Assembly: GCF_011038965.1 (NCBI RefSeq)
Contig: NZ_JAAKEB010000010.1
Coordinates: 1-64,000, forward strand
Length of the DNA stretch: 64,000 bases
Reading direction: 5' to 3'
Origin: Adlercreutzia sp. ZJ141
GTDB lineage: Bacteria > Actinomycetota > Coriobacteriia > Coriobacteriales > Eggerthellaceae
The notes beneath the pieces were generated by a model, which worked only from the letters and a program-made list of their open reading frames with translations, was not told the origin of the DNA and did no database searches. The first letter of the stretch is position 1. Each line of letters starts with the position of its first letter. This document shows positions 7,368-40,059 of this stretch, in pieces. The position numbers were made by a program, and so were the translations under genes.

Positions 7368-7529
7368 TTAAGGAAACACTGATTAAAGCCGTCTTGCCTT
7401 GCGCTGGCGAGGCGGATACCTGAGGGTTGAAGACCGAATGCGCGCTCTGACGTGCGTAAATGAGGTCTGAAATCCTCAGATACCGGTTCGTCAGTGCAAG
7501 GCTGGCGGAATTAATCAGTGTTTCCTTAA
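7368..7529. repeat. Palindromic repeat element, copy A
   Basis: A 162-bp element bounded by perfect 19-bp inverted repeats, TTAAGGAAACACTGATTAA at 7368-7386 and its complement at 7511-7529. The interior continues to pair: GCCTTGCGCTGGCGA with TCGTCAGTGCAAGGC (13 of 15), CTGAGG with CCTCAG, and AGACC with GGTCT. The whole unit can therefore fold into one long hairpin. It lies 25 bp before the engB start codon. A second copy lies at 9652-9814. It has no coding capacity. Confidence 0.85.
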
Positions 7530-7554
7530 GTACCTTACCTTACAAGGAGCGGAC

Positions 7555-8142
7555 ATGAACTTCAACAACGTGACCTTTGAGCGGGCGTTCGGCGTGTCAT
7601 CACAGCTGACACCCTCCACGCTGCCCGAGATCGCTTTCGCGGGACGCTCGAATGTGGGCAAGTCGTCACTCTTAAACAGGCTTTTCAACCGTAAGGGACT
7701 TGCGAAGGTATCACAAACGCCTGGAAAAACCGCCACTATCAACTTCTTCTCAACCGGCGATGCACGCTTCGTCGACTTACCGGGCTACGGTTACGCCAAG
7801 GTGGCAAAGTCGGAAAAGCACCGCTGGTCCGAACTGATCGAGGGGTATTTCAACCAAGACCGCGACATCGCGCTGGTGGTGTCGCTCATCGATATACGAC
7901 ACGCGCCCAGCGAGCTGGATGAGAACATGACCAGATTCCTGCAAGAAGCCGACTTGCCGTTCGCTATCGTGCTTACCAAAGCCGACAAGCTCAGCCGACA
8001 ACAGCAGATGAAGCAGAAAGCGGCTATCAAACGCTGCTTGAATCTTGCCGCCGATGTACCCATCGTGGTGACCTCAAGCGAAAAGGGTACTGGTATTGAT
8101 GAATTGCGAAGCCTGATCAAACGATGCGTCGGTGAACAGTAG
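7555..8142 (+). CDS. engB: Ribosome biogenesis GTPase EngB/YsxC
   Basis: Circularly simple TRAFAC GTPase needed for assembly of the large ribosomal subunit. The 195-residue protein contains G1 GRSNVGKSS (30-38), G3 DLPGYG (74-79), G4 TKAD (141-144) and the TSS segment of G5 near the C-terminus. Length is normal. AAGGAGC precedes the ATG at good spacing. It is one of the very few plus-strand genes here, transcribed away from rpsB, and its upstream region is occupied by palindromic repeat A. A bidirectional terminator follows. Confidence 0.96.
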   Translation: MNFNNVTFERAFGVSSQLTPSTLPEIAFAGRSNVGKSSLLNRLFNRKGLAKVSQTPGKTATINFFSTGDARFVDLPGYGYAKVAKSEKHRWSELIEGYFNQDRDIALVVSLIDIRHAPSELDENMTRFLQEADLPFAIVLTKADKLSRQQQMKQKAAIKRCLNLAADVPIVVTSSEKGTGIDELRSLIKRCVGEQ

Positions 8143-8170
8143 CGCCGTGTGACTGCCGAAACCGAAGCGC

Positions 8171-8215
8171 AAGAAGGGCGCGCCACTGCAATGATGCAGT
8201 CGGTGTGCCCTTCTT
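8171..8215. terminator. Bidirectional terminator between engB and NlpC/P60 gene
   Basis: AAGAAGGGC (8171-8179) pairs with GCCCTTCTT (8207-8215), and inner complementary bases (ACTGCA with TGCAGT) extend the stem. T-rich stretches at both ends make it usable by the convergent genes on both strands. Confidence 0.75.
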
Positions 8216-8304
8216 AATGTTGAGCTACAAATAGATTAGGGACAATACCATAAAGCTAAGCAGAGACACCACTGCGTGAGTGAAATAACTCAGCCGAGCC
8301 GTTC

Positions 8305-9471
8305 CTAGTAATACGGGCGAACGTAGACCATGCCTGCCTGAACGGAGGCCACGCACACTGTCTGGCCAGGCATAGGGGCGTGGATCATCTGGCCACCACC
8401 AATGTAGATACCCGTATGTTGCGCACCGTTCGGTTCATGTATGACGCAGATATCACCCGGTTGTGGATTCGACACCCGTGGCAGATTAATCAGAGCACCG
8501 GTGTAATGAGGAACCGACACGCCAGCCTGCGCATAGCAGTACTGCACCAGACCCGAACAGTCAAACGAATTCGGTCCACCAGCACCAAACACATACGGGC
8601 TACCGATCTTGCCACGCGCCACGTTTACCACCGTGTTTGCAACCGAACCACTATATGAAGGAGCGCTCGCCGGTGGTGCCGACGGAGTTGATGGTGCACT
8701 CGGAGTGCTCGGCGTTGACGGGGTTGACGGCGCGCTGGGCGACCCACCACCATTACCGCCGCCAGACGCTGTGCCACCTGCTCCGTTATTCGTCGTTCCG
8801 GCTGCGGCTTCAGCAGCTGCTTGTGCGGCGGCGGCTTGTGCAGCCTGTTCTTCAGCCAAAAGCTCAGCCGCTTCATCGCTTAAATTGTTGTACGTTTCGG
8901 TCATAGCGGCAACCGTGGTTTCGGCTTCGGCCTTCACCGATGCGGCTTCCTCAGCCTTTTCCGCAGCGCGCTGCGACTGCTCAACGTATTCGGCTTGTTC
9001 CTGCTCGATTTCAGCACGAAGATCCTTCGATTGCTGCACCAATTCCGCATCATTTTCGTTCATGGTGTTCAGCAAACTCAGACCCGTTGCAAATTCCTGA
9101 AACGACGTGGCACCCAACAGCAAGTCGACGAAGTTCGCTTGCCCTGAGCGATACATGGTGCGAGCGCGCGAACCCAAGCGACTCTGCAGACCGGCAATTT
9201 CATCGCTTGCTTCATCGATGCGCGTTTGTGCCTCATTGGCACGTTGTTCAGCCTGCGATTGTTCATCGAGCGCGGCATAATAGTTATTCGATGCGCGATC
9301 GAGCTCTTGTTGCATAGAATTCAGTGACGCCAGCGCCGCAGCAGCTTCAGCCTGCGCTTCAGATGCGGGTGACGCGACGGCAGTTGCAGGAGCCAACAGG
9401 GCCGCAACCAAGCTGATACTACAGAGCACACCTAATGCGTACCGGCTTCGTTTGATGTGCGTTTGACGCAT
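8305..9471 (-). CDS. Secreted NlpC/P60 peptidoglycan hydrolase 1
   Basis: A 388-residue secreted murein peptidase, predicted to cut stem peptides during wall remodelling. It has an N-terminal signal peptide (about 1-34, ending AVASPAS), a long coiled coil (about 38-215) like those of RipC/PcsB-type cell-division hydrolases, an Ala/Gly then Ser/Thr/Pro linker (about 212-280) and a C-terminal NlpC/P60 domain with C305, H352 and H364 as the probable catalytic set (FDCSGLVQY, AQHTGIY). It is a close paralogue of the gene at 9842-10996; domain order and the segment LLLGATSFQEF are shared. Coiled coils in this class usually mediate activation by an FtsEX-like partner, which is not present here. Confidence 0.92.
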   Translation of the reverse strand: MRQTHIKRSRYALGVLCSISLVAALLAPATAVASPASEAQAEAAAALASLNSMQQELDRASNNYYAALDEQSQAEQRANEAQTRIDEASDEIAGLQSRLGSRARTMYRSGQANFVDLLLGATSFQEFATGLSLLNTMNENDAELVQQSKDLRAEIEQEQAEYVEQSQRAAEKAEEAASVKAEAETTVAAMTETYNNLSDEAAELLAEEQAAQAAAAQAAAEAAAGTTNNGAGGTASGGGNGGGSPSAPSTPSTPSTPSAPSTPSAPPASAPSYSGSVANTVVNVARGKIGSPYVFGAGGPNSFDCSGLVQYCYAQAGVSVPHYTGALINLPRVSNPQPGDICVIHEPNGAQHTGIYIGGGQMIHAPMPGQTVCVASVQAGMVYVRPYY

Positions 9472-9651
9472 TCAGAAAACCTCCCCAAAACGTTTGAAAT
9501 CGCAATGCACTTTCCCGAGGGTAACAAACAGCACCGCAAACGGGGAACCTTCTTCGCCAAAAGCCCACGAACGCGTCACGACCTCACAAGAGAATAACCA
9601 CAACTGCGCGGCGCGCAAACACTACACGGACAACTGCCTAATCTGATTCAG

Positions 9652-9814
9652 CTAAGGAAACACTGGTTAAGGCTGTCTTGTCTTACGTTTGCAGGATGGA
9701 TGGCTGGGGGGTTGAAAACCGAATGAGCGCGTATACGTGCGTAAATGAGGTTTGAGACCTCCAGGCACCACCCTGCAAGCGCAGGACTGGCAGAATCAAT
9801 CAGTGCTTCCTTAA
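9652..9814. repeat. Palindromic repeat element, copy B
   Basis: A 163-bp relative of the element at 7368-7529, with ends CTAAGGAAACACTGGTTAA (9652-9670) and TCAATCAGTGCTTCCTTAA (9796-9814). The central block (GTTGAA.ACCGAATG ... ACGTGCGTAAATGAGGT) is shared with copy A. Several stem positions differ by paired changes, for example AGACC/GGTCT in copy A against AAACC/GGTTT here, so the fold is kept while the sequence drifts. It lies between the two NlpC/P60 genes. Confidence 0.85.
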
Positions 9815-9829
9815 GGAAACACTGATTGA
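9811..9829. repeat. Third, end-only copy of the palindromic repeat
   Basis: TTAAGGAAACACTGATTGA begins at 9811, sharing its TTAA with the right end of copy B. Only this one end is recognisable; it then runs into the stop codon of the NlpC/P60 gene at 9842. The joined ends form a nearly perfect palindrome of about 32 bp centred on CTTAAG. Confidence 0.7.
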
Positions 9830-9841
9830 TCGGATGCTTAC

Positions 9842-10996
9842 TTACGGACGCACGTAGATATATGACGAGCTGTTCATCCATCCGTCAATCGACGTGCACA
9901 CCACACCGATGCCCGGGCTTGAAGCATGGATCATCTGACCACCACCAACATAGATACCGCAATGGCTGGCGTTGATCACGATATCACCCGGCTGAGGATC
10001 AGACACCTGCGGATAGATGCTCATAATATTACCTGTACCACCCAGGCGCGAATAGCTGCCCGTCACGCAATACGCCACGAAACCCGAGCAGTCAAACTGA
10101 CCAGGACTGCAAGCGCCGTACACATACTGCGCCTTACCGATCCAATACTGGGCGCGATCGAGAATACCGCCGCCAACGTACGGATCGTACGACACGTTGC
10201 CGCCACCATTCGGTGACCAGCCACCAACAGCGCCGCCCGCATTGCCACCGTTATTGCCGCCACCATTGCCAGCACCCTCGTTGCCACCGCCAGTATTCGC
10301 CGCACCATTATCGGTGGTTGCTTCAGCAGCTGCAGCCGCAGCTGCTGCTTGGGCAGCAGCTTGCGCCGCCTGCTCTTCGGCGAGTAGCGCTGCAGCTTCC
10401 TCACTTAAGCTCTCGTATGTAGCCTGCATGGATGAAACGGTTGTCTCAGATTCCTGTTTAATACGCTCGGCTTTCGACACAGCTTCGTCGGCCGCCGCGC
10501 GCTGCGCTTCGTACTCAGCCTGCTCGGCTTCGACAATCGCCCGCAAATCCTTCGACTCCTGCACAAGATCGGCGTCATTTTGGTTGAGAATGTTCAAAAG
10601 CGTCAAATTGTTGGAAAACTCCTGAAATGATGTGGCGCCCAGCAACAAGTCAATAAACGACGACGTACCGCTGCGATACATGCTGCACGCGCGGTTACCC
10701 AGACGATTCTGAAGCCCAGCAATTTTCTCGTTCGTCTCATCAATGCGCACCTGCGCCTCGTCGGCCTTCGCCTGCGCCTCGTCGCGATCATTCATAGCAA
10801 CTTCGTAGTCATACGAAGCTTGACGCAGCTTCTCCTGCATGGAGTTCAATGACGCGAGTGCAGCATCAGCTTCCGCCTGCACTTCAGCCGCAGTATCGGC
10901 AAACGCAACCATAGGGCACAACAGCATCACGGCGAGCACGATACTGCACACACCCACAATCAGTCCATTTATTCGCGCTTTGGCATTGAATTGCAT
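9842..10996 (-). CDS. Secreted NlpC/P60 peptidoglycan hydrolase 2
   Basis: A 384-residue paralogue of the preceding hydrolase with the same plan: signal peptide (about 1-34), coiled coil (about 36-210), Ala-rich then Gly/Asn-rich linker (about 210-275) and C-terminal NlpC/P60 domain with C303 (FDCSGFVAY), H345 and H357. The linker composition (Gly/Asn) differs from the Ser/Thr/Pro linker of copy 1, while the coiled coil is conserved, suggesting duplication followed by linker divergence. The 3' end abuts a partial palindromic repeat. Likely exported to the cell surface for septal peptidoglycan cleavage. Confidence 0.92.
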   Translation of the reverse strand: MQFNAKARINGLIVGVCSIVLAVMLLCPMVAFADTAAEVQAEADAALASLNSMQEKLRQASYDYEVAMNDRDEAQAKADEAQVRIDETNEKIAGLQNRLGNRACSMYRSGTSSFIDLLLGATSFQEFSNNLTLLNILNQNDADLVQESKDLRAIVEAEQAEYEAQRAAADEAVSKAERIKQESETTVSSMQATYESLSEEAAALLAEEQAAQAAAQAAAAAAAAEATTDNGAANTGGGNEGAGNGGGNNGGNAGGAVGGWSPNGGGNVSYDPYVGGGILDRAQYWIGKAQYVYGACSPGQFDCSGFVAYCVTGSYSRLGGTGNIMSIYPQVSDPQPGDIVINASHCGIYVGGGQMIHASSPGIGVVCTSIDGWMNSSSYIYVRP

Positions 10997-39932: not shown

Positions 39933-39972
39933 GAAAAAGGCAAGCCTCCCTGAGAGCGGGTTCAGCTTGCCC
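39933..39972 (-). terminator. Riboswitch-controlled terminator before purO
   Basis: On the minus strand GGCAAGC (39965-39971) pairs with GCTTGCC (39939-39945), with an inner CCC/GGG stem, and is followed at once by TTTTTC (39933-39938). The 5' arm contains bases of the 3' helix of the upstream ZTP aptamer, so ligand binding and termination are mutually exclusive. Confidence 0.9.
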
Positions 39973-40040
39973 AGACGGTCGGCATGTATGATGCGCACCA
40001 CTCCCCCGTGGTCGTCCACGATGATTCCGTCAGTCACAGC
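39968..40040 (-). promoter_or_regulatory. ZTP (pfl) riboswitch controlling purO-purH
   Basis: The leader of purO shows the conserved core of the ZTP aptamer: GTGACTGACGG, then GGACGACCACGGGGGAG and finally ATGCCGACCGTCTGGGCA. It senses ZMP/ZTP (AICAR nucleotides), which accumulate when 10-formyl-THF is short. The downstream genes encode exactly the two enzymes that consume ZMP. An overlapping terminator gives an ON switch: bound ZTP should release the terminator and allow transcription. The small open frame across this region is not a gene. Confidence 0.92.
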
Positions 40041-40059
40041 GCGCCGCTTGCACGCGTGC

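Follow-up and report, generated by a model that had tools for sequence, protein, structure and literature searches.

Insertion sequences of the IS5 family duplicate a YTAR target on insertion (PMC10359306). Among small repeats, the Correia or NEMIS elements of Neisseria come in size classes of 107 and 155 bp, are intergenic and give long stem-loop transcripts (PMC2229807), and the ERIC and QMITE2 elements, of 127 to ~ 150 bp, form stable RNA folds (PMC2229807, PMC10969869). REPs measure 20-40 bp and are recognised by GTAG or CGTC tags (PMC3733652).

The window studied here is the whole stretch of 64,000 nucleotides at the start of contig NZ_JAAKEB010000010.1 of Adlercreutzia sp. ZJ141, hereafter the own genome. 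It contains two palindromes of about 160 bp, which a first-pass annotation had read as a folded RNA, a cruciform or a REP/MITE-like substrate for transposition. We are nearly certain that they are a non-autonomous element of the IS5 family (a MITE). Such a MITE is of a known kind, and the structured hairpin within it is undescribed; as an overall explanation, an IS5-type MITE carrying a structured-RNA module is probable.

Two copies of the element in the window

The features of both copies are given below, where the strand of a full-length element is its best-folding, or core, strand and where R1 and R2 are covariance models.

7368..7371, no strand, TTAA, target-site duplication on the left of copy 1; in this position, near-identical copies at other loci are flanked on either side by CTAG
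7372..7525, + strand, full-length element, copy 1 (R1, 172.8 bits, E 2.5e-45, the copy being in the training set)
7372..7386, + strand, left terminal inverted repeat GGAAACACTGATTAA of copy 1
7422..7477, + strand, apical core of copy 1 (R2), tandem G-A modules and a GCGCNC-UGAC-GUGCGU hairpin; the core is conserved in other-ended elements
7511..7525, - strand, right terminal inverted repeat of copy 1
7526..7529, no strand, TTAA, target-site duplication on the right of copy 1
9652..9655, no strand, left YTAR flank CTAA of copy 2
9656..9810, + strand, full-length element, copy 2 (R1, 149.8 bits, E 5.5e-39, the copy again being in the training set)
9707..9762, + strand, apical core of copy 2 (R2)
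9811..9814, no strand, right flank TTAA of copy 2, common to the adjoining solo end
9815..9829, + strand, solo terminal repeat GGAAACACTGATTGA adjoining copy 2, a third end whose 19-bp form is at 9811-9829

The 19-bp terminal inverted repeats first noticed are present in both copies, perfect in copy 1 (7368-7529, TTAAGGAAACACTGATTAA) and with two mismatches per end in copy 2 (9652-9814), and the 19-bp end has 5 matches compared to 0 expected from shuffled controls. However, comparison across copies shows that the element proper begins with GGAAACACTGATTAA and has ends of 15 bp; the outer 4 bp, TTAA or CTAA, are the target duplication and not part of the element. The interiors were said to self-pair, and the RNA folds of copy 1 (-79.4 kcal/mol, z -8.75) and copy 2 (-67.8 kcal/mol, z -6.28) do lie far below those of shuffled controls, but the structure is better described as a hairpin that is imperfect and asymmetric between strands, its internal loops being conserved. 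The paired stem change that separates the two copies, AGACC/GGTCT in one and AAACC/GGTTT in the other, is present as reported, and so is the conserved apical block, ACGTGCGTAAATGAGG being identical in both. Copy 2 has 75% identity with copy 1 and is the older, while copy 1 shows 96-98% identity with four other copies in the own genome.

The covariance model search detected no full-length copy in the window beyond these two, no partner for the solo end was detected nearby, and no sigma-70-like promoter was found near the window copies. Copy 2 sits between two similar ORFs (8305-9471 and 9842-10996, - strand) which by eye resemble secreted coiled-coil and NlpC/P60 proteins. The sole Rfam match in the window is a ZMP/ZTP riboswitch (RF01750, 55.4 bits) at 39962-40047 on the - strand.

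Dispersal and target sites

The element is ~ 154 bp long, below the limit of ~ 500 bp for a MITE, dispersed and carries no transposase gene. Searched at the DNA level, the own genome (2.29 Mb in 57 contigs) returned 79 matches, and full-length copies number 13 in this genome (G000), 29 in Slackia sp. ZJ119 (G136), 28 in G047 and 5 in G137. These 75 copies from four genomes form our comparison set; the 62 outside the own genome belong to Slackia sp. ZJ119, Curtanaerobium and one further genome. Hence the first-pass annotation, which was to fall if no more copies existed or if they varied without pairing, is upheld on this point by additional copies with paired changes. Five of the 13 own-genome copies share 96-98% mutual identity and are therefore recent. 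The ends also occur there on many shorter copies, of 38 to 75 bp, and as solo 15-bp repeats.

Near-identical copies occupy either type of site, TTAA (two close copies) or CTAG. Among the 75 full-length copies the two flanks are identical in 28 (CTAG/CTAG in 26, TTAA/TTAA in 2), and YTAR is present on both sides in 37. Mobility of the element is well supported. Given that CTAG and TTAA contain stop codons, gene ends may be safe targets; at least one neighbouring ORF terminates exactly at the element boundary. Searching a plasmid collection returned short chance matches only.

A candidate helper element

No insertion sequence with matching ends had been seen in the window, and this extends to the own genome, where a search with one transposase family (DDE_Tnp_1) over the 57 contigs revealed neither an IS5-type transposase nor a matching-ended IS. 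The DDE_Tnp_1 matches obtained there were rejected as an autonomous helper, being of a different family without these ends. The transposase with these ends that the first-pass annotation proposed to look for is found in a related genus, in Slackia sp. ZJ119, within an autonomous 1285-bp IS (L285:946-2230) which is flanked by CTAG and has the same 15-bp ends as the MITE (GGAAACGCTGATCAATTCGA and GGAAACGCTGATTAATAGC). Its 331-aa transposase belongs to the IS5 family (NF033581, E 6e-85; PF01609, 1e-27). Past ~ 18 bp of the end, the MITE and this IS have nothing obvious in common, so the MITE cannot be derived from it by simple internal deletion. Two inverted end pairs in G137, 2.5 kb and 4.4 kb long, were discarded as helpers since they contain other ORFs and no DDE_Tnp_1 match.

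Apart from this, a multi-copy DDE transposase, which by eye may be IS1634-like, is represented by fragments at three loci (L063, L064 and L065), each at or close to a contig end, and these fragments probably helped to break the assembly.

Covariation in the hairpin

Covariation was assessed in an alignment of 26 full-length copies, which come from three genera. In this alignment 93.2% of cells are paired, a value which leans towards the structure because the latter was derived from the same alignment; shuffled and slid versions give the fair comparison. Indeed, paired cells fall to 33-41% in the slid controls, cells altered on both sides number 167 compared to 54.8 in shuffles, and none of 500 shuffles attains any of the five measures. 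On the whole, 30 of 52 pairs are altered on both sides. As an example, the core pair at columns 78/101 is G-C in 17 copies and A-U in 9 with no exception, and a conserved tandem G-A adjoins it.

Probable preservation of one strand of the hairpin

RNAalifold gives -74.8 for the core (+) strand versus -30.7 for the other (-) strand. To count changes by strand, pairs were chosen by a strand-neutral score in which G-U equals A-C, and parsimony was used to map the changes onto trees, a method which together with low tree support limits the precision of the branch counts. A choice of pairs that barred G-U altogether left too few pairs and was replaced by this score. In 47 copies from the own genome, Slackia sp. 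ZJ119 and G137, internal branches show 55 G-U versus 26 A-C changes (p 0.0017), while terminal branches show 104 versus 95 (p 0.57), and the internal branches carry an excess of changes that preserve pairing (Fisher p 0.001). With the ends removed, the G-U:A-C counts are 42:17 on internal and 76:61 on terminal branches. In the Curtanaerobium clade alone the bias is not significant (11:8 overall, 9:3 without ends). The contrast between internal and terminal branches indicates that propagating lineages kept the pairing of one strand and that single copies decay; we hold it very probable that one strand of the hairpin was under selection in the source lineages. Such a bias in ancestral changes argues against a cruciform, against correction between the arms and against host upkeep of most single copies, and a fold selected on one strand while single copies decay favours RNA, or one-strand DNA, over a cruciform.

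Versions without the core bear on the same question. Elements of a 65-bp class, which have the same arms and in many cases YTAR-like flanks, occur in the own genome, Slackia sp. ZJ119 and G137, and coreless versions of 60-75 bp are abundant (L319-L333; L014-L025). As these move, transposition can proceed without the core; a role in transposition is thus weakened, and an RNA role appears to be the best reading. Units of ~ 38 bp ending in GCGTTTCC are possibly the smallest forms, one of which (L021) has TTAA on both sides.

The hairpin could act as DNA on one strand, for example by joining the ends or by stalling replication for the transposase to act. Strand asymmetry is expected here as well, and the core strand is also the better fold as DNA (-45.5 versus -35.2 in copy 1). 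However, IS5-family DDE transposases work on double-stranded ends, the coreless 60-75-bp versions have spread in three genomes, and the flanks of Y1/RAYT genes in these genomes are devoid of such hairpins, which makes this explanation unlikely. We also consider it quite unlikely that the individual copies serve the adjacent gene as host-adaptive cis-regulatory RNAs (terminators, riboswitches or stability elements). The copies examined are intergenic and near genes, copy 1 lying ~ 29 bp upstream of an engB-like gene, but pairing on terminal branches decays without strand bias (104:95), no terminator-like site was called at the elements, and these have no Rfam match; moreover, their orientation relative to neighbouring genes (identified by eye) looks mixed, and this lends no support to a fixed cis role. 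Finally, a palindrome maintained at the DNA level, as a cruciform or through arms matched by template switching during replication, with paired changes that are mutational and not selected, is highly improbable, for although long inverted repeats are very stable and single-stranded DNA folds well too, both strands would be treated alike, which the 55:26 excess of ancestral G-U over A-C contradicts, and arm correction would erase conserved positions of two kinds, G-U and tandem G-A, both of which are kept.

Of the folded RNA and the cruciform proposed at first, it is therefore the RNA that retains support, through strong strand-specific covariation, whereas the cruciform is disfavoured by pairing kept on one strand only. 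RNA rather than one-strand DNA is likely to be the acting form.

The core in other elements and across the Coriobacteriia

Model R1, built from GGAAAC-ended copies only, finds elements with other ends in two further genomes from other genera, G048 and G118, at 87.5 and 88.5 bits. Their ends differ (GGGAGACGCGTCTTTATG with CTAG flanks; GGTCATGATGAATAAATG with TTAA flanks), and G118 holds additional copies of its own element type. Within family f6, the elements of G407 and G422 bear still other ends. Core similarity to the window type is 58.3 for the G048/G118 elements and 44.1 for f6, compared to 23-24 for shuffled-hairpin nulls.

Weaker core matches led to loci, called N-type, which lack IS-like ends but share the tandem G-A ladder, here within a longer hairpin. 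R2, a core model made without them, detects the N-type hairpins, whose core similarity is 40.5 versus 24.7 (sd 0.65) for shuffled-pair hairpins. Three genomes have seven, six and seven N-type copies with unrelated flanks, and over these 20 copies 31 of 46 pairs are altered on both sides, with 69 G-U versus 30 A-C changes. A third model, R3, made from 14 N-type hairpins, has hits at E 1e-4 or lower in 169 of the 396 Coriobacteriia genomes, with at least eight candidates in many of them, and in the window it finds the two copies at E 4e-8 and 2e-7 with no further match at E up to 1; E-values of the models are rough since calibration was shortened. A loose regular-expression search for the core gave noise for the most part. 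In Rfam, neither the elements nor the N-type hairpins have a match at the gathering score, and relaxed E-value thresholds yield just eukaryotic miRNA or snoRNA models far under that score. Our literature search found no prior description.

Around the N-type hairpins, automatic gene calling proved unreliable in these GC-rich genomes and was left out. By eye, the hairpins at L125-L155 lie mostly just beyond the 3' end of a gene on the opposite strand, with frr, era, aroF, dnaJ, coaX and uvrD among the adjacent genes, and often another hairpin, lacking a T run, comes next. In G133, the core hairpin occurs in tandem ~ 100 bp apart (L167, L168 and L169), and this genome has at least 26 core matches.

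On these observations we propose, tentatively, that the Coriobacteriia share an undescribed, multi-copy structured RNA, a long hairpin with a tandem G-A ladder, whose apical domain several IS-like end pairs would have captured independently as a payload, with selection acting on the RNA during the spread of the elements.

A model for the element

An IS5-type transposase would move the MITE in trans into CTAG or TTAA sites, sometimes at stop codons near gene ends. The interior of the MITE would be a structured-RNA module, a ladder of stems parted by tandem G-A pairs and closed by a short hairpin cap, its core presumably homologous to the dispersed hairpin family of the Coriobacteriia and taken up between IS-like end pairs of several kinds. 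When transcription from outside reads the core strand, the hairpin may be recognised by a host RNA-binding or processing factor, and new insertions could then be better tolerated or the transcript more stable. Once inserted, a copy would be free to decay.

An RNA role of the core is likely, with a function that we infer. That the core is a cis-acting RNA signal can be put forward with some reserve, and a processing or stability signal is our best guess for such an action. A trans-acting RNA is doubtful, a role as one-strand DNA somewhat unlikely, and a role other than these three improbable.

Comparison with known systems

The Coriobacteriia include well-known gut bacteria, and in more than 40% of their sampled genomes this covarying hairpin was detected, although it matches no Rfam family. 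Furthermore, the recurrence of the core in mobile elements that differ in their ends, along with the contrast between branches, opens to testing what role RNA payloads play in bacterial MITEs and, in relation to this, whether it is the element or the host on which selection for such a payload acts.

With respect to REP/RAYT systems, the likeness is that of dispersed hairpins in many copies, but the MITE is 154 bp long with IS5 ends, and the Y1 transposase genes have no flanking copies. Identity with RAYT-associated REPs was rejected, as length and ends differ and the Y1_Tnp loci retrieved from these genomes show no convincing match to R2 or R3. The REP half of the initial REP/MITE-like label is thus set aside for its size and the lack of a RAYT association, while the MITE half stands on target duplications, dispersed copies and an autonomous IS5-family element that has the same ends in a related genome. 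ERIC and QMITE2 elements have a similar size and stable RNA folds; in contrast to them, the MITE has a class-wide homologous core within several end types and an ancestral strand asymmetry. Correia/NEMIS elements resemble it in being intergenic and in having two size classes, here ~ 65 and ~ 154 bp, but the Neisseria core has an IHF site whereas the part added in the MITE is an RNA-like core common to unrelated elements. With IS5-group insertion sequences and their MITEs, the element shares ends that begin with GGAA, a 4-bp YTAR duplication and the cognate transposase in Slackia sp. ZJ119; it departs from them past ~ 18 bp of the end, where its interior becomes an unrelated, covarying hairpin module.
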